A DNA stretch of 64,000 bases, from NCBI GenBank assembly GCA_029204225.1, contig CM055102.1, positions 28,820,969 to 28,884,968 of the forward strand, in the 5' to 3' direction. This DNA comes from Diphasiastrum complanatum. Lineage: Eukaryota > Streptophyta > Lycopodiopsida > Lycopodiales > Lycopodiaceae. The position numbers and the translations under genes were made by a program. The stretch's first letter is position 1; every line of letters starts with the position of its first letter. Of the stretch, positions 5,111-51,790 are shown in pieces. The notes under the pieces were generated by a model that was not told where the DNA came from, searched no databases, and saw only the letters and a list, made by a program, of their open reading frames with translations.

Positions 5111-5865
5111 GATTTATACCCATCCGACATCTTTAAATGGAAATCGGTTCAATCTCTTGCAAGAATAAGAGATGTCATACATTCTAATAATGGTTTACTT
5201 CAATATAAGGGATGGTCTACCATGTATATTTCTAATAAAAAAAGTTTTGTGGGTAGATTAGAGGCATACCCTCTACCAAATTTTACAAGCGAGGAATGGA
5301 TTTCTCCATATTCAAGAATATCAGAAAGTTTTCGATTGAGATTATACATGGATATTCAGAGCATATCAAAATATAGCACTTGTTCAAAGAATAATATATT
5401 GATTGGTATCTACCTTTTAGTATTTTTGTTGATTTTTTTTCATAATGCAATGTACGTCGAACAAAAACAATGTTTATTTGTAAGGACTTAAGTGATGAAA
5501 TGTTCGTTGAGATGTTGGATGATCATTGGGATACAAAACAAAATGAGCAAGTCGAGTGCCGAGTTTGTAAATTATCAATGACATTTGGATATCACATAGA
5601 AAAACAAATGATCACTTTGCTGTTATATTATAGAAGGTGGATAAAATGCAAAAATGAGTGGAAGCCACTAGATCAAGATTATGCAGTAAATCATCAAGAG
5701 CAACTTCAAATAATAATAAAAAGAAATGACATTCTTGCGATGATTGAGTCTGAGGAATATTGGAGTCTCAATCACATTCGATTAGAACTAGACATGTTGC
5801 AGTTTGATCTACCTCAGTATTATCAATTTCGATTGAATGGTGTTAAGGTATGTTATGCCATATGA
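5111..5865 (+). pseudogene. gene X, copy A of the four-gene element
   Basis: The coding part starts after a TTTTGTAG acceptor at 5110 (LYPSDIFKWKSV...). It runs to about 5420, where a GT...AG intron of roughly 65 bp precedes the block that starts DLSDEMFVEMLDDHWD near 5486. That second block aligns over its whole length with gene X copy B at 14133-14510. Shared landmarks are FGYHIEKQM/FRYHIEKQM, W(K/L)PLDQD, and EE(Y/H)W(S/K)L(N/D) ahead of a final NG. Both copies then have a donor at the same place (AAG GTATGT here, CTC GTAAGT in B). The short terminal exon seen in B and C is not found here. The protein family is not recognised and no membrane segment is convincing. Homology between copies is clear; function is unknown. 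Confidence 0.6.
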
Positions 5866-7350: not shown

Positions 7351-7639
7351 GTCTGCTGTCTACTCTTCTGGTTCCTCATAATCGCAATTAAGCTCTATTT
7401 TGTGTTTGCCTACTATTGTAGTAGTGCACACACTGAGGGATTCAGTCGACCATTGCCTTCGTGCAGTAGTAGGATAGTTCTGATCCAATTGTTCGACCTG
7501 TGTGATCACCACGGTCATGTTTTGATATCGATAAGCTTGTTTCAATCGAAGTAGATGATCTAGATACTGATATAGGTGTTGAAGCTGAAGCATCTATGGC
7601 TTCAGAGTTTGTGAGCAAACTATCTCTTGTTCTATAATC

Positions 7640-8634
7640 CTATCTAATTCTTTTCCAACTTCAACTCCTATTAATATAAAAACTATACTTGATGTTTCTG
7701 TATACTTTATAGATAATCACAATTATATTTTTTTTTATGATATAGAAGATGTTTTTAATATGAGAGAAGATGAAGTCTTCTCTATTTTTGCAAAACAATT
7801 CTTAGAATTTTTTGACATTATTGATTTTAGTTATAATGATCTCAAAAGTGAGATAGATTTTCATAAAGATGGCAATTGGAAATCTGGCAAGAAGGCATTG
7901 AAGCCCATAATTGAAAAATCAAAAGCATATGAGAAAAGTTTGCCAAACGAGAAAGAAATTTTGGAATTCCAAAAAAAGTATACTCCAAGAACTTAGTATA
8001 TCCCCTCGAGCAATGTAGAAGCTATTGGAGGACATTGCATTAGTAGAAAAAACGTTGTTGAATCCGATGATTATGATCTGGTAAGCTGATATTATATTGG
8101 TTTTGATGTTGTACTATTTTCTTTCAATCAAAAGTTTAAGTTTGAGATGGTATTGTTTTCTTTCATTCTAAATATATTACCTTTACTTGTTACCAGATGC
8201 TATTGAACTAGATAACTTTGGTATGAGACATGGAGGCCTTCGAGATATATTATATGGGAGAAAGGATGCATCTCTTTCCCATTATTCAAAAAAACTTTGA
8301 AAATAATGAGATCTGTATACATCATGGGTCTTTAAATCCATATGTTGCCACTATCATTATGGCTATTAAGGCATTATCTGTTAGTTTAGGAGGCCATACT
8401 TACTCTAGAGGAAATTCCAAAATAGTTTTTGTTAAGAGGGATCTGGCCATTAAAATATTGGGTTATATCCCTAAAGATACTACAAAAAGATACTTTGCAA
8501 TGGCCATTTATTCGGGTTATATAGATATGACCAAAAGAAAAAATTTAGAATTTTTGGATCCATATGAAAGGAGATTATTCCTTTATGACAATACCATCCG
8601 CCTGAATCTTGGAGAGGATGATGATAAAAATTAA
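7640..8634 (+). pseudogene. gene D, copy A of the four-gene element
   Basis: The first block (VSVYFIDNHNYIFFYDIEDV..., 7690-7996) aligns with copy B (PVYYVNDDVYFTTADLCKF). A stop follows at about 7996. A spliceosomal intron is conserved in position with copies B and C: GTAAGC donor at 8081, TTACCAG ending at 8196. The last exon starts DAIELDNFGMRHGG (copy B: DALIIDDFAARRGG). It shifts frame near 8260, then continues as IIMAIKALSVSLGGH...KIVFVKRDLAIKILGYI to a stop at 8634. That region carries the family signature (I)IMA(I/V)KALS-x3-GGH. The acidic C-terminus (GEDDDKN) matches the acidic end of copy B. The family is unknown to me. The frameshift and stop mark it as a relic. Confidence 0.7.
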
Positions 8635-8699: not shown

Positions 8700-8890
8700 C
8701 ATTATTAAAGATCATAAGGTTTGGTGAGCTTTTAGCTTGATATCTAAATTGTGCTCTTCTATAAAACCACTGAAAAGTTGAACTAGATATTTATTTTTTG
8801 CATTATGTCCACCATGATTTGTAGCTCAATGAAACGCTCCTCTGGCTTGCCAATGCAATTTTTCCATTCCTTGAGAGATGCGGATATGGG
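8700..8890 (-). pseudogene. gene T 3' end, copy A
   Basis: On the minus strand the frame reads SQGMEKLHWQARGAFH, then a stop, then TNHGG. It matches gene T copy B (SSQGMEKSHWQARAAFH, 19.2 kb) and copy C (SSQGMEKSHWQA, 50.35 kb). It lies convergent to gene D, as in the other copies. Everything upstream has been replaced by the Ty3/gypsy element that begins at about 8890. Only the C-terminal piece remains. Confidence 0.7.
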
Positions 8891-11310
8891 CATTGCTACA
8901 AGAATTGCCCAATTTAACTTGGAACAAGCGCACCCTTGAATTTAATTTTTGTGTAACTGACAGCAGTTCTAGGAAGGACGCCACAGGGAAAGCAAAACCC
9001 CCAAGTTCAAGTGCTAGTCGTTACGCGAGCACAAAAAGGGAAGGGAGTGGCTACATCACCAACATCATCAGTATCAATGGCCGATGATCAACCCATAGCT
9101 GCAGGACCATATCCTAATGTGAGGGAGGAAGGAAGACAATACCATAAGATATGCCATTGGATACAAGATGCACAGGCAGAGGAAGCAGCGCGAGCAAGGG
9201 AACAACTAGCAGCACCTCTACCATTAGAAGTACCAGCACCACTAGTCGACTCTCCATTGTGAACATTTCACCATCATGAAGTACCATTTCGTGTAGCATG
9301 AGTTAGGTTCACAATCAGGAGTGCTCGCAAGATTTCTAACTAGCCGCATGGACATATCTTTTGGGGAACTCTTGCGGATGGCACCACAAGCTAAAAGCAT
9401 TCTACCAGATTGGCTCAATTTAGAGTCGGAACCAACCACAATGGAGCCCTTATACTGAGCAGGCTACGAAGGAACAAGCAATGGGCAGCATGGGAAAGTG
9501 AAGAGCAGAACATCACCCTGCCAATCAAGCACAAGTGATTTGAAGACAAAGCAACAGTGGTAGATGGAGGATCAGGTGTAAATTTGATCTCCACTACCTT
9601 GTATCAGAAATGGGGTTTGCAAGGATTGAAACCAGCAAAATTTGCCATGAAATTAGCATATCAATCCTGTGTAAAACCAAAGGGTCTAGTTGACGACATT
9701 CCGGTAAAAATAGCAGGAATGCAATTCGTAATCACCTTCGTGGTGATGGACATAAGACTTGTCAAAGACAAGGGTCATTGTTGATCTGCCACCTCTAGAG
9801 ACGATTCGTGGAGTCTACGTGTTTATGGGTCATGCCGACTACTACCGGATTTTCATTCTAGATTTTGCGGAGTTAGCACGACTAATATACAAGCTCACAA
9901 CGAAACCACATTGGACGGAGGAGGCCCTGCAAGATTTCCATAAGCTTAAGGATGCATTGGTCTTAGCGCCAATATTAAGACCACCCAATTGGTCCGTAGA
10001 GTTTCATGTTCATATAGACGCATCAAAGTATGTAGTGAGAGCAGTCTTAACTCAGCCAGTTTGCTAGCCGACAACTCAGTGATTCAGAGATGAACTAGTC
10101 GACCACAAAGTGGAAGGCACTGGCTATGATTTATGCGTTCAAAGATTTTTGACGTTATTTGATGGCCACCCATTTTGCTTTTTATATGGACCATCAACCC
10201 TTGCTTTATCTTGTTGATAAAACTTGCAACACATGGAGAATCACTCATTGGTTACTTTTGTTGTTTAAGTTTGATTTTCGATTCGTGTGCGCAAGGGAAA
10301 GCAACATTATATGATAGATCATGTGTCGCAAATCAAGAGGAAGGAGACTGCAGCCCTACATGGGTGGTGGTCATTTCGCATCTGACAGTTCACAAGGTCT
10401 TGTAGTCAAGATGCTGGTGGCCAATGATTCATAAGGACACGGATGAGTACTTGAGGAAATGCGACGTGTGCTAGAGAGCCAGAAGACCGACAAGATTGAA
10501 CTATGATCTTCTACATCCAGTCCTAGCTCAAGCACCATTCGAGAAATGGGGATTGGACTATATTGGTCCTATTCATCCTGGTGCAAGAAGTTCACAAGCC
10601 CGATATATTATCATGGCTACGGATTATCTCACCAAGTGGGTAGAAGCCAAGGCAGTGCGAACAGTTGACCCTCAAGCAACTGCCAAGTTCCTATACGAAA
10701 ATATCATTGTGCGCTTCGGATGCCTGGTGGAGATAGTCATCAGCGATCGCAGAAGCCATTTCGTCAATGAGACCATTAAAGTCCTGTTGGAGGAATCTTT
10801 CGTGATCCATCAGCACACCTTATTATCCTCGCGGTAATGGGCAGGCAGAGTCATCCAATAAGATCTTGTGTAGCGTGATCACGAAAACATTGAAGCTAGC
10901 AGATTTAATTGGGAGCACAAGCTACATGTTGCCCTTTGGGCATTCAGGACAGTGTATAAGAAAAGCACCAACCACACACCATTCCAATTGGTTTATGGTC
11001 AGGATGCAGTAATGCCAACAGAGTTTTTGGTGCCATCATTAAGGGTTGTCATGACACAACGCCTGGATGAATGCAAATTTCTACAACTATGCCATGAAGC
11101 CTTACACAAACTTTGCGAGACACGCATCTTGGCAGTACATGCAATAACAGCCGAGAAATCATGGTGCAAGGCATGGCACGATTGTCAGTTACACAAGAAG
11201 GATCTTTGATCTACAGCCTAGTCCTAATATATAAAACCCAAGCAATCAAGGAAAAATTGAAGTTCACAGGCAAAGGCCCGTATCGTGTCAAGAAAATCTT
11301 AAGCCATGGA
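8890..11310 (+). mobile_element. Ty3/gypsy retrotransposon remnant 1
   Basis: Domains in order on the plus strand are as follows. A gag zinc-knuckle piece (CGYGHCYKNCP, about 8880-8912). A protease region at 9557-9745 with VDGGSGVNLI, where D-G-G replaces the usual D-(S/T)-G. The end of the reverse transcriptase and start of RNase H at 9780-10067 (FMGHADYYRIFILDFAELA, then HVHIDASKYVVRAVL). The remaining RNase H to about 10300. An integrase at about 10430-11060 with a zinc-binding remnant (LRKCDVC), catalytic-core landmarks GLDYIGPIH and ISDRRSHF, and the downstream NHTPFQLVYGQDA. The catalytic reverse-transcriptase core between protease and RNase H is missing. Stops and frameshifts interrupt every domain, so the copy is dead. 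Confidence 0.9.
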
Positions 11311-13719: not shown

Positions 13720-14130
13720 TCGGTCATGCCAACGGATATTCACTCGGCGTGTTTCATCATCTTCTCCATTTTCTTCAATAATATTGCCTTGCTACTTCAC
13801 TTTCCCTTGCTTGATATCAGCTTTCTTTTTGTAGCACTCTCTATCCCAATGACTTGGCTTGTGGTAGTAGTAGTACTTGTCTTTCTTCTTATTTGGCAAT
13901 GATGACGACTCTCTCTCATCCTCATCATCCTTTACCTTTCTTGGAATGCATTTCTAGCCCTTTTGCTTACATTTGGCCACCAATGCCTGATCTTCTTGAG
14001 TGGTATGTCTCGACTTGACCAGTTCACGCCTTTGCTCTTCCTACAGCAAGATCCCATGAAGGTCCTCAAAAGTGGGCAATTTATCCCTTGATGTGATACC
14101 ACTCATAAACATTTGCAAGCTATTCGCCAT
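13720..14130 (-). mobile_element. copia gag fragment
   Basis: The minus-strand frame reads MANSLQMFMSGITSRDKLP, then basic acid-rich linkers, then a zinc-knuckle remnant (YYYYHKPSHWDREC). This order is typical of copia Gag. The fragment ends within a few bases of where gene X copy B begins, so it marks the left breakpoint of copy B. Confidence 0.7.
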
Positions 14131-14132
14131 GC

Positions 14133-14680
14133 CACTCATTATCAGATGAGACTTTGTCAGATCTCATGGATCAAGGCTGGGATAGTAAAACAAATAGTGA
14201 CATAGAATGTAGGATTAAAAAGTCCTCAATGATCTTTCGTTATCATATCGAAAAGCAAATGCTCAGTCTCACATTTAGCTACCAGAGGTACAAGAAAATT
14301 GAAGGTACATGGCTACCACTGGATCAAGACTTTAAACTAAATGGTCACACAAACCGAATGGAGATAAGCATTATCTACAATGAGGAATATTTGACTATGG
14401 TTGAGGTGGAAGAGCATTGGAAGCTTGATTTTATCAGAGCAGAGCTCATGCTATTACAAACCAATCTACCAACATATTTCACATTTATCATCAACGGAAG
14501 ACTCGTAAGTACTTTATGTTTATTGCCATTTCAAAATAGAACAAAATAATAGAAAATGTCATCATTTACAATTGCACATTCACTAATATTTGCCTTGTCA
14601 CAGATGCGAAAAAGACAAGAGCTAATAACGTGCTGCAAAGATCTACCTGCAACAATCACCATTGTGGGAGAACAATAGTT
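14133..14680 (+). pseudogene. gene X, copy B
   Basis: The coding sequence opens at a breakpoint with copia DNA: HSLSDETLSDLMDQGWD corresponds to DLSDEMFVEMLDDHWD of copy A. It continues to FTFIINGRL at about 14505. A GTAAGT donor and a TTGTCACAG acceptor near 14604 then lead into a short last exon (RKRQELITCCKDLPATITI) that stops at about 14680. This last exon aligns residue by residue with copy C (CKKHELEIKCRDIGETIQL). The 3' end lies about 170 bp from the 3' end of gene H, tail to tail. The N-terminal part is missing. Function is unknown; the repeated pattern shows it was a real coding gene. Confidence 0.65.
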
Positions 14681-14849
14681 TCAAATAAACTTTAGTAAAA
14701 ATCTGTGTATTCAATAAATGAAAGCCCAAGTTGGACATCAGTACATGTATTTTGTGCTCCCAAATTCATAAACTGGAGCAGCATTTGATATATCAATGTA
14801 TATTTTTCTATGAATTCTATACATGTATTTTTGTTCTATGTTATCTATA

Positions 14850-16560
14850 TTTGTTCTGATCTTAATTTAGTATAACTACATATACTCAAGATAATTTCTT
14901 GTCTAAATTTGTACACCTGGCTTGATGTGTACTCAGGAAGTGTAAACTGCAAAATAGAACATTCATGTATTAGTAATGGCCCAAAACATCAACAAAATAG
15001 AAAACTAATCATGATTCCAAAATAAGAATAAACAGAATTTATTATCTTAGAAATATCAACATCTTGCTGAAGGTTGAACCACTCAAAAAATAACTTTGCA
15101 TTGTATAATGTGTAACACCCACAGTTGAATGAATCATTTTGCTAGGGTGACTGCAAAATAATTCAGCACACAAGAAATCAATTATGAAACATAATGAATT
15201 AGAATGAAACAATTACATTAGAATACTGATTTCAAAATGCTATTATGAAAGACAGAGTTACCTCCAAACTGACAATCTGCCAGTCCACGAAATGGGGAAT
15301 ATCTGTAGGAATATATTTACTTAGATATGGAAGGTATATATCTACATTTTTATGCGTATTTCTCGCCGAATTCATCTTGACACAAAAACCTTTAATAATA
15401 TTATCAATAGATCTCTTGATAGAGATCAGGTTTAAACTCCAGTGGTCACTGCAAAATAAGATTGAAATTTTCTTAGCTGCAATTCTGAGAACTATTGCCA
15501 TTGACAATGCCAATGTTAATGCATAAAACAGCAAGAAGCATTTAATATATCTTACTTCGTATGATAAGGGATGAGCAGATACTTTGTTGCTAGTGTGAAT
15601 CCACTTGTCAGACACTGTGACAATGTGTCATTATTCTCCTTGAAGGCCTAAAAAAAAAAGCTACTCAGCATTAGCAACTCATTGGATGAATCTCTTGCAA
15701 TGTCATATTGCAAGAGTGTAATCTCGGACTCTATCATAGGATCACTGATAGAAGCCCGTCTGTCTTTGAGATCCAAGCAATCTAGAGCTCTAAAATTAAT
15801 ACTAAAATTAAGTTCATCTAGTCTAAAACAAAAAGGAGTACCTATTGTATCTATAGCATCGGATATGTCTTTCTCAAATTTAAGATAATCATTCGAATCT
15901 ATATATGTATAAAAATTTGGAGGAGGAGGAGGAGGTGGATGTGTAGTATCTACAGGAATTAAAGGGGTATCCAAAACAGATGTAGCTATATATACAACAT
16001 TATCAACAACAACGTTATCTACAATGGATTCCAGGTTAGGCTTCACAGAATCTGTGGTGTCTACCCTGCTTACTTTCTTCGGAGCTCTCTTGGGGGTTGT
16101 CTGCTTCCTAGGATGCTTCATAGGAAGATCGGTCATATCAGAGGAGCTGGTCTAGGAACAACAGGCTGAGATACGAGTAACCTACAATACCTATCCCTCA
16201 TTCATATCAGGAGCGAAAATCCTTCGGCATTATGGTGACTCTCTTGGAGTGGATTGCAAGCAAAAAAGAATCCTAAAAAAAAAGGCTAATGTAATCTTCA
16301 ACAGCCTCCTGAAGTCACTGAAGAGCACTGGGTGTGAATCTAACTAGCTGTCCGAGATCATTTCTTGTTATGTTTCGGACAGCACGGTAGAATGGAGCTC
16401 TTGGGATCAATAGAGCTATTGATCTTTGATACTTGCATATCTCAGAGAGCCACCTACTGCGGTTGCGCGTTCTAGGTCTAGTGGGTGGTGTAATGGCTGT
16501 AGGGGCTGAGGATGAGCCAGGAGAGAAGAAGTCCCTCCTTGTCTGCTTTCTCCTATCCAT
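14850..16560 (-). pseudogene. gene H, copy B: histone-H3-fold plus Ulp1-like protease
   Basis: Exon 1 (16560-15557) starts MDRRKQTRR. It then carries a histone-H3 core: SEICKYQRS, LLIPRAPFYRAVRNIT, LQEAVEDYISLFF, LAIHSKRVTIMPKDF. Stop codons sit inside the core at the second helix and after KDF. A basic and proline-rich linker follows (PKRAPKKVSRV, a run of seven Pro), then a protease-like domain. The exon ends LLIPYHT at a GTAAGA donor. Exon 2 (15448-15262) completes N-DHWSLNLISI, the His motif of Ulp1/C48 proteases. Exon 3 (15150-15046) has QNDSFNCGCYTLYNAKLFF, with the Gln and Cys-Gly of the active site. Exon 4 begins at 14946 (FTLPEYTSSQVYKFRQE) and decays leftwards. The exon 3 donor is mutated. 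Several stops make this a relic, but architecture, exon lengths (187 and 105 nt) and intron positions match copy C. Confidence 0.8.
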
Positions 16561-17392: not shown

Positions 17393-18906
17393 ATGGCCTC
17401 TTCCTCAGGATCCTCACGAGATTCAGGCTTGAGTTCATTTCTTAGTGAATTTGGGATTCTGAAAACCTAGACTACTTCCACAGCCTATTCAGGCCATATC
17501 TACATGTTTTCAGGACTGCACAACCAAATTCTGACGTATTTTATGAACATTATGTTAGATTTAGAGATATACTTAGTAAGCCTATTTTCTCCATAGGTCC
17601 ACTCCAGTAGATGCATTATAGTGATCTTGTTATTTCTTCCCAGCTTTCAGACATAGGCTGGATAGAATGTTCACCAAATTGTTTGATCTTATAGAAAGTA
17701 GTCAATGTGTTCGTATTGCAACAAGAAATGTCAATTGGTTGAATATCAGAGTGGTTTCGTACTTTTCCTGTTAGTTCAGATCCCAGATGATGAGGAAGTT
17801 TCTATTGCTGACCCTCCTTTTGCATCATCCTCTGTTCAATCAACTATTAAAGATATCAGTCACTTTCTTATCGACAATCCTGATAAGGAAAGTGACTTTA
17901 TTGATGTAAATACTGATGTTCTCCGAGATTCTTTTATTGGCCAAAATACATCTGATGATGAATCCAACCCTATAGAGGAGTCGAAATGTCTTTTCAATTT
18001 TCCAGTATATTATGTTAATGACGATGTATATTTCACTACTGCTGATTTATGTAAATTTTTTGACTATTGTGAAGATGAGGTTCTATGTTTATTATCTGGC
18101 ACAATTTTTGAATTCTCCGACTTTGTAGATCTTGAAATAGATGACCTTGTTGCTGGTATTGATTTTGATGATGAGGAGAGACTTATGACCGGTGAAGAAT
18201 GCCTGACTAAGACTTTATCAAATATAGCTAAGGATGGGCGAGGCAGAGCATCTGATGAAGAATTCATGGCATTTCAATCCCAGATGGACTTCCCTTGTCC
18301 ATCATTAATGCATTTCACTAATGATTCCACTTTAGTACGTGGTCATTATATTGATCATCCTAATCTAGTTGCTATTGATGATGAAGAATGTGTAAGTGTT
18401 TAAACTTCTTTGCATTAGAATGTTTTCAATCAATGAATGTGTTTTTGCTAACACATTTCCTATTGCAGGATGCTCTCATAATAGATGATTTTGCTGCGAG
18501 ACGAGGTGGTTTCAGACAACACGCATCCTCGTTCCAGAGGGACAGTGGACTGGGCCACTATCTTAGGCATTTCCTGAAGAATGAGATCTATATTGCTCAT
18601 TGCAAGCTGAGCCTAGTCGGGGAGAATCTTATAATGGCAGTTAAAGCTTTATCATTTTACCTAGGAGGACATAAAATTGTTAAGACAAATAAGATCATTT
18701 TTGTCAGAAGATCTTATGTTTTGAACATTTTAAGCTTTATTGATGGGAATGTTCCTTTAAGGAGCTCCCATTATTCATTGTATTCCACTTATATTGAGCT
18801 TAGTGGAAATAAGGATAATGCACATCTATTAGATGCATACGCTAGCAAAGAATTTCTTCATGACAATACTGCCATAGAATCTGACACAAGATCTGATGAT
18901 GAATAG
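17393..18906 (+). pseudogene. gene D, copy B
   Basis: The first ATG (17393, MASSSGSSRDSGLSSF) opens a short frame. The homologous body starts in a different frame at LDYFHSLF (17467), the same frame relation as in copy C. Decay near 17600-17690 includes one stop and one shift (LDRMFTKL in both copies). The long block to 18391 contains PVYYVNDDVYFTTADLCKF and an acidic stretch. A 77-bp intron follows (GTAAGT donor 18392, TTGCAG ending 18468), at the same site in all three copies. The last exon reads DALIIDDFAARRGG, then LIMAVKALSFYLGGHKI, then KIIFVRRSYVLNIL, and ends in an acidic tail at 18906. Of the three copies this has the longest open frames. The protein family is unknown; conserved GGH and IIFV(R/K)(R/K) motifs are its signature. 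Confidence 0.7.
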
Positions 18907-19059: not shown

Positions 19060-19838
19060 TGTATGAACTTGTGTGCTTTTCTAAACTTGTTGTATCATGT
19101 GGACTTTGTTATATGTCGAATCTGAACTTTGCGGTAGAACCACTGAAAAAATTGACAAATGTAGTTTCATTTTTCATTGGTTCCTCCATGTTGTGTATTT
19201 CAATGAAATGCTGCTCGCGCTTGCCAATGTGACTTCTCCATCCCTTGTGATGACCATACACTCAAGCTTCCATATGTATTTGCAAAAACTGTTGTATGAT
19301 CTCTTAGTATGTGCTGCATATGTCAAAATCATAATGTTAGTCTTATGTTTGGATCTAGATATATATAAAAATTTGAAAGCATTTTGAAAATTTTATACTA
19401 ATTATGTGATGAGTGATGTGATCTCCTCCCCATGCTTTTGATACTGCATTAACAAACTTGACACAAGTCCTTTGGATAGCTTTCTTATCGATATCAGAGT
19501 ATTTTTTTTTCTTAAAATAGCAATCATACTGTCAAGATTTTTCCATACATCAACAACTTTTAGTACTCTGGTTTTGCCGTCTTTCTCGAAGTCCTGAGTG
19601 GCAGCAATAATATCTGTCCAGACTGAGTGTTGAATATTAGAAGCCTTATCAGTATGATTTGATAGGAAACGACATGCTTTTTCTCCTCCTATGCTTGACT
19701 TAGTTGGCATGTTCCCATTCTTTCCTGAAAGCTTTTTATCTTTTTGAATTTTGACATGTCCTTTATGGAGTCCTGCTTTTGATAAAACATCTTCTAATCG
19801 AGAGATAGCTTCCTTTGCTATTGCGTTGTCTAGTGTAT
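19060..19838 (-). pseudogene. gene T, copy B, C-terminal half (transposase-like)
   Basis: The minus-strand frame 19842-19402 (AKEAISRLEDVLSKAGLHKGH, then CRFLSNHTDKASNIQHSVW) aligns with copy C (AKEAISRLEDVLSKAGLHKGH, RRFLSNYSGKQSKVQYTVW). After an intron, 19310-19130 encodes HILRDHTTVFANTYGSLSVW, SSQGMEKSHWQARAAFH, a stop, then NTQHGG. It is convergent to gene D. At about 19838 coding sequence stops abruptly at an inversion breakpoint and opposite-strand copia sequence begins. The matching upstream half of T is found inverted at 20779-21940. Confidence 0.75.
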
Positions 19839-20205
19839 TCAAGATGGTAGATCTAGGACTTCTTAAGTTTATACTTGGAATAGAAGCTTCTAGAGGCAGT
19901 CATTTTACCTTTATTTGTCAATCAAAGTATGCTACTTCCATTCTTGAAAGATTTGGAATGAAAGATTGTAAAGGGATTGACACCCCTATGGAGCATGTTG
20001 TAAAAGTTTCTAATGATGGTGATGAAGCATTCTTTGAGGACATCACACTCTTTAAAAAGCTTATAGGCTCTTTAATCTATTTGACAGTCACTAGACCAGA
20101 TTTGACTTATTGTGTAAGTAAGTTGAGTCAACATATGCAAGGTCTTTTAGTACATCATTGGAAAAGTGCCAAAAGAGTGCTTAGATATATCTCACATTAG
20201 AGGAG
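19838..20205 (+). mobile_element. copia reverse transcriptase, C-terminal fragment
   Basis: The frame reads KMVDLGLLKFILGIEASRG, then the FGMKDCKGIDTPMEHVVKVS and LIGSLIYLTVTRPDLTYCVS blocks typical of the end of copia reverse transcriptase, then RVLRYISH. It is open for about 120 codons. It supplies exactly the part missing from the minus-strand copia element that ends at 21946. Together with the split gene T this shows an inversion. Confidence 0.9.
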
Positions 20206-21940: not shown

Positions 21941-21945
21941 ATGAT

Positions 21946-39649: not shown

Positions 39650-42600
39650 CTGATCTAAACTATACCCAAATTTGCAGGTTTTTGGAAACAAGCTAATATT
39701 GAGGTAGCAAGGTTGAATGGATAGCTAGAACCATCATATTTGTACCAAATCTTGATGTGGGCTGCAGGTGTACTTTCCACACGTGTGGGGCCGTACAAGA
39801 CCTGTTTTGGACAGTAAAATTCAGTTTGGTGCATTTTGAGCTTCATACACCCAATTTTGAGTCAATTTAGTGCATTTTTCAAGCTTTCACTTGCATTGTT
39901 TCTATTCCATTGATTTGTTCTTGGTTTAGAACAATCATATAGATGGATTAAAGCTTGTTTACAGTACATTAAAGTTGATTCTCTGATTTTTTGAGTGTAC
40001 ATTGAAGTTGAGAGAGAAAGAGTGCTATAAACCAAAGATTAAGGAGTGATTTGCAAGGGGAGAGATTGAAATCCATTATACCTTCATTCTAGATTTGTTC
40101 AAGAGTGAAAGGGCTGAGTCTAGAAGCATCTAAATGCTAGAAGACACTCTTGGATCAGTCCTCCAAGTGAAATCTTAGTGAATTTCTAAAGCACAAACAC
40201 TCATAAAGGCAAAATCTACCAATACAAGGCGATAAGAATTGTTGGCAAGTACTAGGAGAAAAATTTGAGATCCAAGTCACATTGTTCATCCCTACTCAAG
40301 TGTGTGAGTGTGTTTTTGACTTTAATTAAATTCATAAATGTGAGTGAGGCATATGTGTTGTGGTTGATCCAAAATTTTCAAGAGATCCTTCCTTTGTAGA
40401 GGGCAAGAACTAGTAACTCAATTCTTGACTTTGGTGGAAAAATTGTCTTAATCATTGTGATCAAATCTTGCTAAGTGGAATTAGCTCTTTGTAAGCACAT
40501 ATCTTAGTGAGAGAGAAGCATCACATTTCTGAAAATTTGAATTTCATTCCAACTCTAAAGAGGTAGAGTCATTGGTACTTGGTGGAGTCCAATAGGAGTG
40601 AATGAATTCAATTTTTTGAGCAAAACTTTGACATTATATGTATGAAACTCAAATAAGTTCTATTCAACTTTCTTTGTGAGAGTGTGAGGGTCAAGTTGTG
40701 ATCCCATTGGGAGTCTAGAACAGGGAGGAGTCCATATTTGAGTGTTTATACATGATTGGGATCTTTGTGAATCTCTAGATGTCTAATTTTTAAGCTTGGT
40801 GAAAAATTATTGACATAGATTGTTATCAAACCATTCCATGTCCATTCTAGTGTTTGGATCTGATTTTTGTGATTTGATAGAGTGCTTTTGTCTTAGTGAT
40901 CAAAGCAAAGATTAGTTTCCAATTGACTAGGTTGAAAGAGATATGATTCAAAATTTGTGGTCTAGATCTTGTGTAGATCCTTCTAGATTGTTGAATGTGT
41001 TCAAATCTAGTTCCTTGAGAGTCACAAATTACATTTTGAAAAGTCATATCACTAGGTTTTACTTCCTCATCATGGCATCAATAGGTGGCAACCTATTGGA
41101 GGCAAGTAAGGATCCTAAATGCAACCTTCGTGGCAAGAGAGATCATTTTGTCTCAAGATGCTACAAAATGAGGACCAATCCATCCAAGGAGAACCAAAGC
41201 AAGGGGGCCGAGGTGAAGGATGGAGCTTCAACTTCAAAGTGCAAAGAAAAGAAGGACAAATCCAAGGAAAGGTGTTTCCTTTGTGGAAAGATGCATGAGA
41301 ATTGGAGTCTCACAAGGACTTACAAAATTTGTCTTCAAAAGTCCATCATCACACATTTCAAACCTTTAGAAGTTTTTCATTTGGAAGTGCATTGTTTGGA
41401 TCAAGATGCAGAGATAAATGTCACTTGGATTTATTTCATGTCCTTCGAAAGCATTTTGTTTAGAACTTTAGAAAAGTTCAAATTTATTGTTATGATCCAA
41501 GAGAAACCAAGAAAGATTGAGGAGCAATCACAAAATGAAAATAGTTCCATTTATGCTCTCATGACATCTTATGAAGAACTATTTTGCTTTGAAGAGATTT
41601 TTGTATCTCAAAGCTGGATTAAGGCAATACTAGTTAAGTGTGATGCCTTAATAGATAGCAAAGCACATTTTCCTTGTAAAATTACATTGAATATGAAGTC
41701 AAGGAAATGGAAATGTCTTCATAATGTATTTTTTGTTGGTTTCAATAAGATCATGAATGATGTGTTCATTCATAATGTTGAAGATTGTAAATTTTCAATT
41801 CTAAAGGCAAGTTGTAAACTTCTTATGAGAATAAGTGAAGCATCCAAAGTGGACACTTATATCCATAAGCAAGTAGTTAGCCTTATTGAGATAGAAATAC
41901 TTCTTGATTTCAATATTAGAAAAATCATGCCAATTTGTGGTGATTTTTGGACTTATGTTTCTAGCATAAGTAATGTTGATGATCACATGAAGCACACATT
42001 ATATGATCATGTTTGTTGTGATCATTTTGAGACATGGAGGTCTCGGATTTCCATCAAGGAGGAGCACCAAGAAGTTGATCTTGAGGAGTCATCTTGAGGT
42101 TCAAGTGTGCCAAGGATTGAGGAGGAGAGTCCTTCTCAAGTTATGATTCCAAGAAGAATATCAAGAGACATGGTTGAGCTCATATGGCTCACATTTCAAG
42201 GGAAAGAGGAGCACATTTCAAGTAGTATACATCTCATGGTTGCTTCTCTTATGTCATTTGGTGAATCAATTTGCTTTAGTGAGACTTTTGCATTTCAAAG
42301 TTGGAGTAAAGCAATACTAGTTGAGTATAGTGTCTCCCTTGAGAACATAGTTGATGTTCTTAATGATATGAAATTGATTTTAGATCAATTAGAAAACAAA
42401 TGGTTATTTCATCAAATGTATGCTCTGGAGTCTTGCAAGAGCATGAGTGAGTTGTTCACTCATAGTGTGAAAATTTGTCTTTTTTCATGTATTGAGGCAA
42501 ATTGTAAACTCTTTATGAGAGAAAGTGAATCATCCTCTAAGGAAACTTATCTCCATAATGAAGTATTTAGCCTCATTAGATCTGATATTAGCATGGTAAC

Positions 42601-43780
42601 CAAGCATGAAGATATGATACAAACTCTTTGTTATTATAGCATGCATAGTCTTGCCAATGTTGATGAGCCTAATCCTCGAGATCTTGGTAACATGATGTTG
42701 GATCTTTGTGATCCTCATGAGTCAAGAAGGAATCTTTATTTTATCATGTAGTTGCAGCTATTTTCAAGGAGGAGGAGCTTTTGGATCAACCATATGCTTC
42801 AAGGATGGAACAAATCAATGAAAGAGGTGCTAGGATGGTGCAAAGCTCTCAAGTTCATCAAAAAAGTCAACATCAAAGAGGCACTATCATGGATATGGTG
42901 ATTTCGGATCGACATCAAGCTCATTGGCTGATCTTCACACCTTTGAACTAGCAAGGATCCATATTAGAAGACCAATTCAGCCCACGGAGTCAATCTCAAT
43001 ATCATCATGTTTTTTTCAAGTTAGTTTTGAGGAGGAGTGTTAAAATTGGCAAAAGCTAACTTGATCATATCTTGTGAATACCATTACGAGTAGTACATAT
43101 CATCATAAGACATGTGTGGATCCTGTTCCCACATGTGAAATAAATGCATTTATCATTTAGATGAGTCATACAGGTTGTACATACAATTTCATTTGAGATC
43201 TAGTGGCTAAAATAGCCAAAATCTAGTTTTCTAGCTATATGCCACTTGGCATCATTTTATTGGTAGGAAAAGCTATTTCACATGGATAGGAGTGATCTCA
43301 CACGTGCTCAGGACTGCTCACATGTGTGAAAACATCAGTAGTAGGTGAGATCCAACTTGTAGTAGATATTTGTGCAAGTCCCTATAAATTAGAAAAATTG
43401 CCTAAAATCAAGGGAGGTGGCTATAAGTTAGGAAACTTGGTCCATGTGCCATATTGATGATTATTGGTGGATCCTTTGATGAGTAGGCACTATCACACGT
43501 GCCAAATCAGCTGAGTAAGCATCAGCTCTTGTGTATATATGGTGGCTCATTTGGCCATAATTGACAAGAAAGCTAAATCTTGGTTTTGGAGCAATTCTAG
43601 TCTATTCTCTCTATTTGTCTTGTGTTTTTATGCATTGATTAGGTTCTAAGCTTAGTATACTTTATTCTCAGCCTAATTTCTGTACTTTGACAGGTTTTCA
43701 CACGTGTGAAACCAGAAAGTACAAGTTTTGATCAGACTACGGCCATCATGGCCTACATCCTTGCACTACAGAAGATACGT
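39650..43780 (+). mobile_element. non-autonomous LTR retrotransposon related to the 22-26 kb copia family
   Basis: The leader at 39740-39800 (GGGCTGCAGGTGTACTTTCC, then CACACGTGTGG) matches, in reverse orientation, the leader of the minus-strand copia element at 25.24-25.29 kb. The coding start MASIGGNLLEAS resembles the gag start of that element. It runs straight into a CCHC-type zinc-knuckle remnant (CNLRGKRDHFVSRC) and then an unrelated coding region. No protease, integrase or polymerase is present. The 3' end has a purine-rich GGAGGAG stretch followed by TGTTAAAATTGGC at 43038, an LTR start resembling the TGTTAATG start of the copia LTR. The left end is truncated, so no 5' LTR is seen. 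The right LTR end is not exact. Confidence 0.65.
41072..42751 (+). pseudogene. long coding region of the non-autonomous LTR element
   Basis: Two frames nearly abut: 41072-42097 (342 codons from MASIGGNLL) and 42107-42751 (about 214 codons), separated by one stop and a frame change. After the zinc-knuckle remnant, the sequence carries an internal duplication. CFEEIFVSQSWIKAILVK pairs with CFSETFAFQSWSKAILVE about 700 bp later. ASCKLLMRISEASKVDTYIH pairs with ANCKLFMRESESSSKETYLH. I recognise no enzyme domain. Length and preserved frame suggest that the protein was once made. Function is unknown. Confidence 0.55.
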
Positions 43781-43889: not shown

Positions 43890-45680
43890 CTAACAGTTAG
43901 AAACATGTATCTGAACAAAGAGAAAGAGGGAAAGGTGTTGTTGAGTTGAACAATCTGTATACACAGAGTGATCAAATGACCAAAAAGGTCTTAAGTAACT
44001 AGCTCCTTAGAGTTAGTGATTTATACACAGAGAAAGAGAGATTTAGAACTGTAGCTATTGTTTTGAGTCTGTAATTAGGAGCACACGCTTATCAGTGCTA
44101 TTGTATTGTGTTCCGATTCTCTTTTATATATAGATAGATTCGCTACTATTCAATCTTTACGTTCTTGATTGAGTGAAATTGTCTCTCTCACTCTCTTGCA
44201 CACAAACACGGTTATCAGAGACAGAGAATCGCATGGCTATCCAAGACGCCTAATGCTTCGCAATCCTACTGTTACGACAGTCTCAGACTCCTACTCTGAT
44301 AATCCAAAAGGGATAACAAGCTTTTGATTCCGTTCCCTAGTCAATCCACATTCCTGAAATCGCAGTTACTATTGTGTTCATTATTTTCTTACTGTTGGTA
44401 GAGGCATCATTTTATATCATAATTACCTCTCGTGTCCTACTTCCTTCACATCCACTGCAATCGTAATCAATCGTAGACCAAGCATTTCACATCATACACC
44501 AATACTAACCACCATCGATTTCATTATTCTTTGATCCTACAATCGTTATCAACAAAAATGAGATAAACCAACTTCGGTGAACAATTTTTGAGCCTTTGCT
44601 TGATGATCGCATGGGGATTCTACAGCAGTTGATTCCAAATAGTGAAAAGTGAGAAATGCTTTTTATTCAAGTCAAAGCAACTAAGAATATCTAGCTTTGC
44701 GTCTTCAAAGGCCATAGAAACAACTAAGTAATAGTATGCTAAGTAACGATGTATCTGAATTTTGAAGCACATTAGATTTTTATCATTCATTGAGGATCTA
44801 TGATTGCGCTGTTAAATCCTACTCATAATTAAAGACGTGTTTTTCTTAAAAACTTTGGCAATCTCTTAGATTGTGAGGCGTCTACAAAAACTACCGTGTT
44901 TTTTATTCGAAACCAACTCAAGTAGATTGACCTTTCTTAAATGCTCCATTTATGTGCAACTAGATAGAGAAGAAATGTTGGCAGTTGCAATCGATTATGT
45001 GCAACTTATTAAAACCCTAAAACAGCTGGATCGTTAAATATCCCAAGGGTAGTTACCCACTTTGTACATATACAAAGACTGGCATAAATAGCATTCAATA
45101 CTTGAAAGATATTTTTTGAAGACACTTGTAAATATATACTACTAGCTGAATCAAGCAATGTAAGTGTTGTTTTAACATTATAATCAGAGTCCTTTTGTAG
45201 CCAGCGTTATCATGCTCAACAAGCTGAAGTTATTACTTCAAGCCATTGTACTCACTGTTGATATTAATCAGAGTGCAATTTTTTGTCTCACTACTGTATT
45301 GTTCATTTGCGCAATTTGTATGAATGATTCATCTTGAATATTTCTATTGCTAACTTTTGCATTTCCGATCCTACATGCCTACGCTCACGTTTTGTGACAT
45401 GGTATCGGAACAGACATTTCAATAATCTATATTCTACTACGGATTATCAGTCTTGTTTCTACCAAGATGTCTCTCTAGCAAACGCGCAGCCAACAGTATT
45501 CCGACAATCGTTGTTTCTACCAACGATCTCGTTCAACCAGAATGGATACATCATCTAGTTTATCTCTCGTTGACAAACTCAATGGAGAAGATAACTACCA
45601 TCTCTGAAAATTCAAGATGAAGGTTATACTACTAGTCAAAGAACTGTGGGACATCGTTGATGGCACAGAGCTCTTCAAGA
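43890..45680 (+). mobile_element. copia 5' end: LTR, primer site and start of gag
   Basis: A primer-binding site TGGTATCGGAAC starts at 45400, directly after TGACA, so the LTR ends at 45399. An LTR-like promoter (TTTTATATATAGATAG) lies near 44130. The left LTR end is not certain; TTAGAAACATG near 43896 is one candidate. A gag start follows at 45541 (MDTSSSLSLVDKLNGEDNY, then KELWDIVDGTELF). It breaks off near 45680, exactly where gene X copy C begins. This is the insertion or rearrangement that removed the front of X in copy C. Confidence 0.7.
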
Positions 45681-45684
45681 TGAT

Positions 45685-45905
45685 GTACTTTCAGACTTCA
45701 GATTCATTTTCAATGGTAAACTCATAAGTAACTGTAAATACTCGATCTTTTATGAATAGTTTCAATCAAATCTTTCTAATACAAAATGTGTACTAAATCT
45801 AACTAACTTTGTATTAGTTTTATACAAGTATGCAAAAAACATGAGCTCGAGATCAAATGCAGAGATATTGGCGAAACAATCCAACTTATGGAAGAACATT
45901 GAGAT
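45685..45905 (+). pseudogene. gene X, copy C, 3' end only
   Basis: The fragment SDFRFIFNGKL aligns with copy B (TYFTFIINGRL). A GTAAC sequence at the expected donor site and an intron of about 100 bp follow. The last exon, near 45835-45905, reads CKKHELEIKCRDIGETIQL and stops, matching copy B (RKRQELITCCKDLPATITI). It ends about 180 bp from the end of gene H copy C, tail to tail as in copy B. Confidence 0.6.
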
Positions 45906-46088: not shown

Positions 46089-48168
46089 CTATTCAATCAA
46101 TTTTTCTATATTTTCTATATCAGTATTAGGACTTGATAAAGCAACAGCTCCTTCTATAATCTTGTCCTCCTCTGTTTCGGGAAGGGCCTCAATGCCTTTT
46201 AAGACAAGAGGAATATCTGCTACAAAATTGCCTTCCTCTGTATTAGGAAGGACTTTTATTCCTTTTTTATCATATAAAATAAGATCTGCATCTTGAACAA
46301 CCTGAAAGACTGTTAAGACAGGAGCAGCTTTCTTTTAAGGGCCCTCGATTGCAGGTGCAACGCTTACACCGTACTGGGCAAAGGTTCTGATCAACTCTTG
46401 CCGAAATCTATATACATCATCAAGAGTATACGGCTCAAGAGTGAACTGTCATCACAAAACACGAGAATTGGCAAATTACAAACAATGATAGTAATAAAAT
46501 ATGAATAAGAATCAAATGAACTACAAATGAATAGAATATTACCTTTTCAATATCTACATCCGTTTGTAAATTATACCATTCAAAAAATAGCTTCGTATTG
46601 TACAAGACGAACCATGCACAACTAAAAACGTCATTTTGTTGTACACACTGCATATATAGAACAAAAATTAGTAAAATTATGATAGAAATTTTATTTATGC
46701 TATGACGATACATTTGAATTAAAAAAGGAATACATGCATATCAGAGATAAATTGAATATACCTTGAGAGATTTAATGGTTATATCTCCAATTGAAGTTGC
46801 CGTTGTCGGTATTTCTCGAACGACATCATGAAGTAGAGAATCAAATTCTCTATGTGTATTTGCAGCTGAGTTTAATTTTACACAGAGAAAATTTGATACT
46901 TCCTTCTTATTTATCTTTACAAAAAGAATGTTGAGGCTCTAATGCTGACTGCAACAACCAAGGTACAAATATCGTTAAATTCATATTTATGAAAAAATTT
47001 CATTCTTATTAAAGCAATGAGGCATGCAACAATTTAAAGCAACAAAAACAAAAGAGCAATTCTTACTTATTTTCATATGGAATCAAATAGAATTTCGCCA
47101 TAGGACTGCACTTCATAAAATAGACAGCCTTCTCAAAATTGGCTTCTTTTGCCTTTACCGCTCTCATGAAAAATGGACTAACTACAAAAACTATACCATG
47201 GGCATCGAAACTAATATTATTCTGCAAAAAAGAAACTCCAGCCTTTACTATTGCATCTGAAATTTGTGAGGTCTTATCTTTTAGCTCGGCACAAAATTTG
47301 GGACCTAATCTAAAGCTTCTACGTGTATTTGGAAGAAAAAAATCAAAAAAGTTGTCGAAAAGATCAATTTTGTTAGCTAGGTATGTCTCGTATTGATTAT
47401 AATGGTCAAAATAAAAAAAAATCTAGGCTAGATCATATGGAATTCTCACAAAAACATTATGTACAGGAACAAAAACAGAAGTGGAAAGAATATTTACAAA
47501 TTTCTCTGTTATTCTATCTAGCTCCTCTTGGGTAATCAACACTTTTGGTGATGAAACCTGCTGAGGAGCTGGACGAATAACAAGAGGAGGACTAGGTGAA
47601 GATTCTCAATCTGAGTTAGATTCTCCAGCATCTGACTCAGAGCTCAGGAAGACACGGGGTCTCTTGGTCGGGATACATCTAGGAAGAAGGGAACCAACTG
47701 GCCTTCGAGATCTAGCCTTCTTGGGGACAGCCTGCTTTCTCTTCGTCCTAGAGGTAATAGGCACGTTGGTTCTATCCAGAGGCAGGTCTTTGGAGGTGCT
47801 GGCATTATCAACATGCAGACCAGAATATCTGTCCCGAAGCCTTTTGAGAATGACGAAATCCTTTGGCATGATGGTGACACGCTTACCATGCATTGCCAAA
47901 AAACAAGTATTCTCAAGAAACTGGGACAAAAAATCTTCTGTAGCACCTTGCAAGGCCTGCATGGCTGTCACGGCAAAACAAACATCCAGCCCAAGTGACA
48001 GAGTGACATTCCGTAAAGATCGGCCAAAAGGAGCTCTAGGGATCAACAATTCAGTTGATCTCTAGAGTTTTCTGATCTCCCTCAACCAGACCTACTTCCT
48101 GCCACGCCTACGGCCAGTACCAACTGTACAATGGTGATGGCACAGACGATGGATTTGGTCCTGGCCAT
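46089..48168 (-). pseudogene. gene H, copy C: histone-H3-fold plus Ulp1-like protease
   Basis: Best-preserved copy. Exon 1 is 48168-47067. It opens MARTK, as H3 does, in a frame one base off the rest. Then come REIRKL, STELLIPRAPFGRSLRNVT, ALQGATEDFLSQFLENT, AMHGKRVTIMPKDF and LKRLRDR. This covers the whole H3 histone fold in order. A basic linker (KRKQAVPKKARSRRP) and acidic patch lead to the protease-like domain, ending FYLIPYEN. Exon 2 is 46948-46762, with NQH-stop-SLNILFV where copy B has NDHWSLNLIS. Exon 3 is 46647-46543, with QQNDVFSCAWFVLYNTKLFF, the Gln and Cys of a C48 active site. Exon 4 is 46445-46089, FTLEPYTLDDVYRFRQE plus an acidic tail with a repeated L-P-x-T-E-E unit. About 585 codons. 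Stops at only a few places. The H3 core is convincing; the protease call rests on motif order. Confidence 0.85.
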
Positions 48169-49011: not shown

Positions 49012-50325
49012 ATGTCTAATTTTGAATCTAGTTTGTTTTCTTTTTTTTTAATAAATTTGGTATTATTGATAGGTTGGACTATTTCAAATCTCTTTTTTCT
49101 TCTATTCTTTTTATTCTACCTTCTATAACTGAGGGCCTTGGTGTGGAGGCATTTTCTGAGATATATCTCAGATTTAAGTCCCTGCTCAATACTCTGTTAT
49201 TCAAGTCTCAGAATAAAGACATGATTCATTATCAGGACCTGGTGGCCCTCGACAAGCATATCTACAAAGCTAAGCTTGACAGAATGTTTACCAAGTTACA
49301 TAATGATTTCAAGTCTGTAGATGAGTGTCCAATTCATAATAAGAAATGTAGATTTGTTGATTTTCAGTTTGTTTTTTTTTTTTTCCTTTTGTTAAATATT
49401 TTTGATAATTCGGACTCTGTGCCCTCCACTTCTGAAGCAGTTTCTTCTAGTGGTACAAAGTCTGAAAAGTCAAAGATTGTAGATATATATCTTTTTGATT
49501 GACACAAGAGTTAATTTAGATGATTTGATTTTGATCCTACTCAAAGTAGGGCTACTTTTATAGGCCCTAGAACACCCACTACCCTTTCTCCTTCTGATAA
49601 ATCTTTGATCACTTTGCCTACTTATAATATAGATAATAATTCCTTTTTGACAATATCGGATTTTTTTTATTTCACTGAAGCTAAGACTCTTTGCATTTTG
49701 AGCAAAGAGCTTGATGAATTTCCGAATATAATTTCTTTTGATGCTGATGATCTTCTCCCTGATGTTGACGATGTACATAATGATAAGTTTTATTCAGGGA
49801 AAGATTGCTTGAAAATGGTTGTGGAGGAACTGCGCAACAAAGAAGATGATCTACTTTCTGAGGAGGAGTTTCAAAGTCAACTTGGTTTTCCACAGCCAAC
49901 TGACTATTCACCAACAATATTGACATCGAAAGGTGGACATAATATTGATGGAGAGACAATAGTTAGAGAAGACAAAGCCGAATGTGTAAGTTTTTGTCTC
50001 TTATCAAGTACTAGTAGATTTGTTATGTCAGATTATATACTGGAGCTTACTTTGTTTTTTATCATTTCAGGAAACAATTTTTCTTGATGATTTTGCAATT
50101 CGTCGAGGAGGGCAGAGATCTTTTGTGGGAGAATTTTCAAGAGATCATGCACTCGGGCACCATCTAAAGTCCTTCAAGAATAATGCCCATTCAAAGTTTC
50201 ATCAGTATGATTATGGCAATCAAGGCACTGTCTCGTTTTTTTGGAGGACATAATTTTAATAAGGTGTATAAAATAATTTTTGTAAAGAAAACTATTGCGG
50301 TTAAAATTTTAGGATATGGACCAGT
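49012..50325 (+). pseudogene. gene D, copy C
   Basis: A first ATG at 49012 (MSNFESSLFSF) opens a short frame. The homologous body LDYFKSLFSSILF starts at 49074 in another frame, as in copy B. LDRMFTKLHNDFKSVD and a poly-T tract follow, then a stop at 49502. A second frame from about 49600 (NIDNNSFLTISDFFYF, then acidic DADDLLPDVDDV, then LLSEEEFQSQLGFPQP) ends at the conserved intron (GTAAGT donor 49986, TTTCAG ending 50070). The last exon reads ETIFLDDFAIRRGGQR, shifts frame, then IMAIKALSRFFGGHNF and KIIFVKKTIAVKILGYG. It breaks off at about 50325, where minus-strand gene T sequence begins. The acidic C-terminus is deleted. Confidence 0.7.
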
Positions 50326-51790
50326 AAATTCCATTGCTTGCCAATGAGATTTTTCCATTCCTTGCGATGACCATATGCTAAGACTTCCACTATTTCTTGC
50401 AAAGAATGTCGAATGATGTCGTAATATGTGCTGCATATCATAAAAACATCATCTAAATCAGTACCAAAAGTATCTAATTTAATTGCACATATTTGTCTAT
50501 CGTAGTGTAAAATCAAAATCTTACCATATAATGTGTTATATGATCAACACCCCATGCACTCTGAACTGCATCCACAAATTCATTGGTTGTTTTCTGTATC
50601 ATTTGAACATCAGTATTTGAAAATTTATCCTTTCTCAAGTATTTCACCATGTTGTCTAACGTTTTTCAAACTTCTACTTTGTGTATACGAGTAGAACATT
50701 CTTCTTCGAAATCTTGAGTTGCTGCAATAATTTCTTTCCAAACCGTGTATTGAACCTTAGATTGTTTGCCAGAATAATTTGATAAAAATCTTCGAGCTTT
50801 AGATCCTCCAATGCTCGACTTGCATGGAATATTTCCTGTTTTACTTGATAGCTTGTCATCTTTTTTTATTATAACGTGGCCTTTATGTAAGCCCGCTTTG
50901 GACAACACATCCTCTAATCTAGAAATAGCTTCCTTCGCAGAGGATTATGACTCGGAATTCCATGCAAACAAGATGTGAAGATATATTATTTTTTCTATAA
51001 TACGCACCTCCGCATGCAATGTACAGATATGAACATTTCGTAGAGGAATCGGTAGTACAGGTTTCCAATTAGGATCTTCTTGATCTCTTGATATTCTTGT
51101 ACTCCTTGTCATGTCTTTTGTTGTTTTCATGCAGTACAAACAGGGGTGTTTAGAGTTAGCACCATGAGATACATTGAACATACATTTTAATGTCTTGAAA
51201 TCTCCTGCTAAATGCCATTCAATATTGAAAGTGCCAATTCCAGGAATATTGAGTGGAACTCCCTCCATGTGATTTTTTATGGTGACAGGATATGATCTTT
51301 CAGCACCTATAAGAGAATACAAAAACGTGATTAGCCTCATAATATTAACACAGAGAAGATTTTAGATATGAAATCCATATTCAAATGATTATCCCTATTT
51401 ATTATGCAAAGGAACTGCTATACTTGAAATGCTGCCAACCACCAGATATCATTTTTTGATTGAACATTGAAATTGAGGTCTTCTGAGTCTTTTGAATTTG
51501 AAAGTGCTCCATTCATCATCGTGAGACTGACTCTTTCCATTTTTTGTCCTTTTATAATTTCAGACTCATCTAACTTGAGAACAACTATCAACTTGTTATT
51601 GACATGCTCATTTGTAATACCATAAAAATTTATGATGAATGTTAATAACTGATTAATGTCAATAAACAAATTGTTGGAATTGTTATATGCTAGACTTTCT
51701 CCTTTCAAGCAATACACTTCATTGATATGAGATGGAGCACAAGCCTTCGACAAACAATTTGTAGGTCTGATAGCTTGTTGGGAAGGTCAA
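50326..51790 (-). pseudogene. gene T, copy C (transposase-like)
   Basis: Exon 51790-51424 contains HINEVYCLKGESLAY and VVLKLDESEIIKGQKMERVS. An intron follows (donor 51423, acceptor at 51307). Exon 51306 to about 50945 starts GAERSYPVTIKNHMEG and contains EWHLAGDFKTLKCMFNVSHG, SKHPCLYCMK and CTLHAEVRIIEKII. A further block (AKEAISRLEDVLSKAGLHKGH to WGVDHITHYM) ends at a GTAAGA donor near 50521. The last block is HILRHHSTFFARNSGSLSIW and SSQGMEKSHWQA. Spaced Asp (LKLDES), Asp (AGDF) and Glu (AEVR), plus CxxC, look like a DDE-type transposase. The superfamily is not assigned. One stop splits exon 2. The 3' end is deleted against gene D. Confidence 0.75.

Follow-up and report, generated by a model that had tools for sequence, protein, structure and literature searches.

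A gene in which an H3-type histone domain is fused to a Ulp1/C48-like protease domain was found in many copies in the genome of the lycopod Diphasiastrum complanatum, in the company of a transposase gene whose product has a RAG1-like predicted fold; as far as our searches show, it would be the first histone–protease fusion described in a mobile element. The window analysed is a 64,000-nucleotide (nt) stretch of contig CM055102.1 (assembly GCA_029204225.1, positions 28,820,969 to 28,884,968; C11:28820969-28884968 in the genome searches), in which element copies A, B and C were distinguished. Copy C (46089-48168, minus strand) and copy B (14845-16560, minus strand) share a four-exon gene layout, with the H3 domain first and the Ulp1/C48-like domain last:

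47067..48168, minus strand: copy C exon 1, with MARTKS start, H3, basic linker and protease N-part; in-frame stops and one frame break, open in relatives
47828..48082, minus strand: copy C H3 histone-fold domain, REIRK to KRLRDR (Pfam, PDB match, AlphaFold2 (AF2) helices, Foldseek)
46762..46948, minus strand: copy C exon 2 (187 nt), catalytic His region NNQH(stop)SLNI, and KLNSAANTH
46543..46647, minus strand: copy C exon 3 (105 nt), QQNDVFSC, with active-site Gln and Cys
46089..46445, minus strand: copy C exon 4, C-terminal part from FTLEPYTLDDVYRFRQE to the stop; one in-frame stop
15556..16560, minus strand: copy B exon 1, with MDRRKQTRR start, H3 domain (16216-16446), linker and protease N-part; broken
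15262..15448, minus strand: copy B exon 2 (187 nt), TNDHWSLNL
15046..15150, minus strand: copy B exon 3 (105 nt), QNDSFNCG; one stop
14845..14946, minus strand: copy B exon 4, beginning FTLPEYTSSQVYKFRQE

A first-pass annotation, made from the letters of the window, had claimed an H3 core running in frame through a linker into a protease domain in copy C, and the same architecture in copy B. The second claim was borne out: exon 2 (187 nt) and exon 3 (105 nt) are of the same length in both copies, the phase of the first intron is equal, and the protease parts are homologous (tblastn 3.6e-24). As the two proteins are only ~39% identical over their aligned length, B and C are judged to be old relatives that parted long ago with their architecture kept, rather than recent duplicates. 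The first claim held for relatives of copy C and not for the window copy itself. There the frame is broken between MARTKS and REIRK, and in-frame stops interrupt the tail, H3 domain, linker and protease N-part of exon 1, as well as exon 2 (where the Trp following the His would stand) and exon 4. In copy B the H3 part has two stops and is followed by a frame break; the protease N-part and exon 3 each contain a single stop.

Further copies were sought in 1,744,706,496 bases of genome with a 151-residue H3-plus-linker piece of copy C, and 150 of 6704 first-look candidates were scored (the first-look numbers, 6704 and 9203, are loose and are no copy number). Apart from the window copy, the best 150 matches comprised 149 sequences with an identity of 77-88% over 149-151 residues. 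Six copies (L025 to L030) were fetched, and were picked for long open frames, so that they overstate intactness. In all six a single frame leads from the H3 domain via the linker at least into the beginning of the protease N-part; exon 1 is open to its end in L026, L027 and L028, and is interrupted within the protease N-part in L025, L029 and L030. L026 and L027 have one stop each, in exon 3, and L028 is stop-free in exons 1-4 (469 codons for exons 1-3, read in the columns of L026, plus 118 residues for exon 4). Of the intact homologues that the annotation had proposed to seek, L028 is the one free of stops among these six, and separate H3 and protease genes were not seen. In ~200 kb sampled beside the window, none of nine element queries found a match at E<=1e-3.

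Assignment of the N-terminal part to H3 was confirmed by several searches. The Pfam Histone family (PF00125; curated cut-off 26.4 bits) matched copy C at E 2.5e-17 (63.7 bits; 47606-48061, minus strand), copy B at E 5.7e-9 (36.7 bits; 16315-16569, minus strand) and L028 at 69.1 bits, and the best match of the copy C domain in the PDB (phmmer) was H3.2 (3e-14). Core identity to canonical H3 is 47% in C and 55% in B, and 43 of 76 core residues are identical between the two. The motif TIMPKD is common to B, C and the six fetched copies, and LLIPRAPF occurs in all of them except L025. The fetched copies start with MARTKSTAR, MARTKSTAH (twice), MARTKCTAR, MSRTKSTAR or MVRTKSTAR, resembling the MARTKQTAR of canonical H3 (P0001), and copy B with MDRRKQTRR. 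The structure prediction that the annotation had suggested gave helices at residues 9-22, 31-61 and 66-80 of the copy C open reading frame, that is, a three-helix histone fold (block pLDDT 93-95 for residues 11-50 and lower beyond; 69.7 for the whole model; pTM 0.38), which is weak support as the AF2 input alignment consisted of H3s. All 33 Foldseek matches at E<=0.001 belonged to nucleosome or histone complexes (42-45% identical; root-mean-square deviation ~10 Å). In a small tree, which has no fully supported branch and an unsettled bootstrap, B and C form one clade (89/79), adjoined by a hand-entered CENH3 core (91/88). B and C have in common 15 of 73 columns that differ from canonical H3, which together with their clade fits a single capture.

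For the protease part, Peptidase_C48 (PF02902; cut-off 20.7 bits) matched the spliced copy B, with X at the stops, at 1.5e-9 (38.4 bits), and the best PDB match of copy B was a Ulp1-like SUMO protease (2e-4). The best C48 match of L028 in the PDB was weak (SENP8, 0.56); three inserted residues of its N-part are absent from the Pfam and PDB queries where these overlap them. In the C lineage, the putative C48 assignment rests on copy B, on the homology between B and C and on the common His/Gln/Cys pattern. In the seven copies read (B, C and L026-L030), the His before (W)SL is present in six, with Asn in L030, and both the Cys and the Gln six residues before it are present in all seven.

Selection was read from substitutions at two depths. 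Between B and C, mismatches at the first, second and third codon positions number 28/19/47 over 76 codons of H3 and 170/127/207 over 314 codons of linker plus C48; the third-position excess in both halves gives signs of the constraint expected for protein, the counts coming from a protein-guided alignment that favours matches at positions 1 and 2. Among the younger copies (L026-L030 and C), mean dN/dS over 15 pairs is 0.34 for the tail (dN<dS in 14 pairs), 0.64 for H3 (11 pairs) and 0.43 for C48 exons 2-3 (14 pairs), the pairs being non-independent since they derive from six copies that include the broken copy C. Codons were read in the columns of L026, with inserted residues dropped (including the three in the L028 N-part), and L025 was excluded for the early divergence of its frame within the protease N-part. 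The tail and the catalytic exons thus show signs of constraint, which appears weaker for H3 and is not visible for the linker.

The annotation had also described the gene as a repeated, mobile-type one, and this setting is established by the many closely similar copies together with the linked transposase gene. Members of the transposase family and two further genes, designated p and q, lie in the window as follows:

50336..51786, minus strand: copy C transposase-like gene, with KLDE, WHLAGDFK, CLYC and VHICTLHA; C-terminal exon GSLSIWSSQGMEKSH
19203..19899, minus strand: copy B transposase-like gene, 3′ part, including GSLSVWSSQGMEKSH
8829..9020, minus strand: copy A transposase C-terminus fragment
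21163-22114, plus strand: further member of the transposase-like gene family
49032..50332, plus strand: copy C gene q, divergent from the H3–C48 gene; frames interrupted
17449..18906, plus strand: copy B gene q
7589..8634, plus strand: copy A gene q
14109..14549, plus strand: copy B gene p, 3′ of the H3–C48 gene on the opposite strand; same place in the C5 copy
5446..5865, plus strand: copy A gene p, 47% identical to that of copy B

When the best 150 matches of each gene were scored, 22 of 150 H3 matches (the window copy included) had a transposase match within 8 kb, against 0.22 expected if matches were spread evenly over the genome. In all 22 pairs the transposase lay on the 5′ side of H3, and in 20 of them the two were on one strand. 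Six couples have near-equal spacing (C15/C2195, C17 twice, C1723/C19, C23 twice, C5 twice and C14/C455) and may each be one locus seen twice, leaving ~16 linked pairs. Besides the window copy, 149 genomic transposase matches were scored, at 80-96% identity. At C5 the gene order is transposase, q (reverse), H3, C48 and p (reverse); at C17, where neither C48 nor p was found, it is transposase, q (reverse) and H3. Genes p and q are conserved between copies and gave no Pfam match above cut-off.

The predicted fold of the transposase matches RAG1/Transib (VIA-align, among the best chains listed). At the sequence level, the transposase pieces gave no Pfam match above cut-off and no RAG1/Transib match by Pfam, PDB profile search or hhalign, the profile in the last comparison ending before the exon with the catalytic Glu. 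A C-terminal GSxxxWxSxGxE match to RAG1 was equalled by 13 (copy B) and 5 (copy C) of 2000 shuffles, and a mid-region comparison did not stand out (327 and 596 of 2000). CMCT transposons (CACTA, Mirage, Chapaev, Transib and RAG1) are defined by C(2)C and H(3-4)H between the second D and the last E (PMC12730594). The corresponding residues are C302, C305 (nearly invariant), H342 and H347 of P0017, with a candidate E in the C-terminal exon. No match to Transposase_21 was listed among the 24 transposase relatives scanned, and DUF1985 and MULE transposase gave no Pfam match in the spliced L028 protein (E<=1) or in the transposase relatives (E<=10). In viral contigs, 15 stretches fit a pattern and none encoded a transposase relative.

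A sharp left terminus, GGGCCCTATAAGAA(A/T)TGCC, was found at three insertion points, with an altered form at window position 20224 (89% over 36 nt); the right end is tentative, and no target duplication, which in CMCT transposons measures 2-5 bp and accompanies terminal inverted repeats, was seen. The 3′ part of copy C is 92% identical to the C5 copy up to 45670. There, at ~45540-45690 (plus strand), lies a stretch that resembles the start of a Copia gag; perhaps an insertion cut off gene p of copy C. At 20224-22114 (plus strand), a second, oppositely oriented element copy (left end and 5′ part) adjoins the copy B transposase fragment.

Ulp1 domains borne by transposons are known already from MULE, CACTA and Crypton elements, in accounts that were available to us in part. 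In VANDAL MULEs, VANC (KIU) genes, some with an Ulp1 domain whose role is described as unknown, lead to hypomethylation of related elements (PMC13317346), and VANC proteins counter the silencing of their own family (PMC5735166 and PMC10398659). As here, the VANC/KIU gene (Kaonashi) of VANDAL, a MULE without terminal inverted repeats (non-TIR), is an Ulp1-domain gene beside a transposase gene; unlike here, no histone is mentioned for it, the word occurring 0 times in PMC13317346. In KI-MULE the ULP gene is in reverse orientation to mudrA (PMC2528002), whereas the gene described here mostly shares its strand with the transposase. Ulp1-bearing CACTA elements (grapevine Cactavine families and rice proteins) likewise place the domain in a CMC-type DNA transposon, yet no histone appears in the available part of PMC2528002. 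Crypton elements of oomycetes are also mobile elements with an Ulp1-related C48 peptidase; they differ in being tyrosine recombinase elements, and the part of PMC3212892 available mentions no histone. Compared with RAG1/Transib elements (CMCT clade), the transposase here has the H3–C48 gene and genes p and q, the latter two without a Pfam family, as neighbours; Transib-like proteins have been reported in plants (PMC9435367, in part), and thus a plant transposase of RAG1 fold is not new in itself. Canonical H3 and CENH3 share the tail, the fold and TIMPKD with the element protein, in which these are fused to a linker and a protease domain. In the protein database, H3–C48 queries gave 12 matches each, every one of which had a listed H3 domain and no listed C48 domain; one of these comparisons scored the 7996 candidates sharing most words. 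The view of the annotation that no such fusion had been described agrees with the open-access literature in PMC, as far as its texts were available (PMC8355894 included), where no histone–protease fusion in a mobile element was found.

The explanation that we tentatively prefer, at somewhat less than an even chance, is that the gene belongs to a multi-gene DNA transposon with a transposase of RAG1/Transib-type (CMCT-like) fold, and encodes a chromatin-directed, Ulp-type anti-silencing factor. The two domains, the single frame, the many copies, the transposase linkage and the signs of constraint are observed; the placement on chromatin, the proteolysis, its substrate and the anti-silencing role are what we infer from them. 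The protein would comprise ~590 residues: the H3 tail (ARTKxTAR) and fold would be joined by a basic linker to a C48/Ulp-type domain that has His, Gln and Cys. Its H3 part could pair with H4 or with H3–H4 chaperones, or its tail could be read, bringing the protease to chromatin; there the protease would remove or bind SUMO or another ubiquitin-like tag on silencing factors, which might help the element to stay expressed and mobile. VANC in VANDAL elements is the precedent for an anti-silencing role. A wider formulation, which we regard as plausible and distinctly less likely, is that transposons with a RAG1-type transposase came to possess an H3 variant of their own, joined to an Ulp-type enzyme, which takes its place in chromatin as a histone and edits or reads ubiquitin-like marks there; the element would supply a chromatin-embedded anti-silencing enzyme itself. 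Ulp1 domains recur in plant transposons; the H3 fusion points to chromatin as a site of action and makes the question of their role testable.

Several results weigh against the anti-silencing explanation. The annotation had proposed Pfam searches for both domains: both were found in B, and Histone in C, but PF02902 fell below its cut-off of 20.7 bits in copy C (0.025; 14.9 bits) and in L028 (0.098; 12.9 bits). In an hhalign comparison of the C lineage with the host C48 protein L001, only the QQ...C segment was aligned (probability 8.7%). The Ulp1/C48 active-site order that the annotation had read stands for His, Gln and Cys. The canonical catalytic Asp was not found; an Asn lies nearby, in VK(M/L/I)NSA, in seven of the seven copies read, where L001 has HYDSM (the exact alignment there is uncertain). 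Papain-family enzymes have Asn in their catalytic triad, and proteolysis is therefore possible; the missing Asp leaves such activity uncertain, as judged from the residues. Mean dN/dS is 1.30 for the linker (dN<dS in 5 of 15 pairs) and 0.85 for the C48 N-part (12 of 15). Furthermore, neither an H3 nor a C48 part was detected in copy A (~4.3-9.0 kb), where no match was better than E 2, and the gene may thus be dispensable.

The same observations bear on other explanations. An unlikely one is that the protein is a transposition cofactor, whose H3 part binds nucleosomes or element DNA and helps to place or assemble the transposase complex while the protease part matures or releases it, or is a structural binder. 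The constant position of the gene on the 3′ side of the transposase (22/22 pairs; same strand in 20/22) agrees with this, and a binder would be in keeping with a catalytic Asp that may have been lost; copy A, however, does without the H3–C48 part, and 128 of the 150 H3 matches have no scored transposase match within 8 kb (best 150 of each). Still less probable is interference with host chromatin, in which a tail-bearing H3 mimic, or CENH3-like protein, would rival host H3/CENH3, chaperones or tail readers and its protease domain would act as a scaffold. An ARTKxTA tail is present in most copies read, and the small tree sets B and C beside CENH3; yet that CENH3 row was entered by hand, the tree is poorly supported as stated above, and both B and C have the Phe (rather than Trp) and the KRVTIMPKD of H3.

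Equally improbable is a passenger origin, by which an H3 fragment captured once supplies a start codon and a basic N-terminus and has no histone function. Transposons often carry fragments of host genes (PMC13317346, in the part available), and the dN/dS of H3 and linker among the young copies amounts to weak or no constraint. That explanation accounts poorly for the 43 of 76 core residues kept between the old lineages B and C with a third-position excess, for the persistence of TIMPKD and LLIPRAPF among the copies, and for the three helices in the AF2 model. Nearly excluded is the accidental reading of separate, neighbouring H3 and Ulp1 genes as one. Both window copies are indeed broken by stops and frame breaks, but no stop lies at the natural end of H3, the frame continues into the protease N-part in all six fetched copies, and only 243 of 10000 shuffles of the post-H3 stretch of copy C remain open.

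Elsewhere in the window, open frames at 27529-27987 and 32850-33356 (minus strand) are, by eye, of phospholipase D type and possibly parts of one host gene. Two long open frames at 40931-42751 (plus strand) are ~33% identical to each other over 170 residues, and the first gave no Pfam match. By eye, LINE-type (long interspersed nuclear element) reverse transcriptase and Gypsy-like retroelement parts lie at 35922-37520 (minus strand), ~9.8-10.8 kb and 58.2-59.5 kb (plus strand). A pair of 209-nt direct repeats, 92% identical and spaced by 272, occupies 3698-4178.
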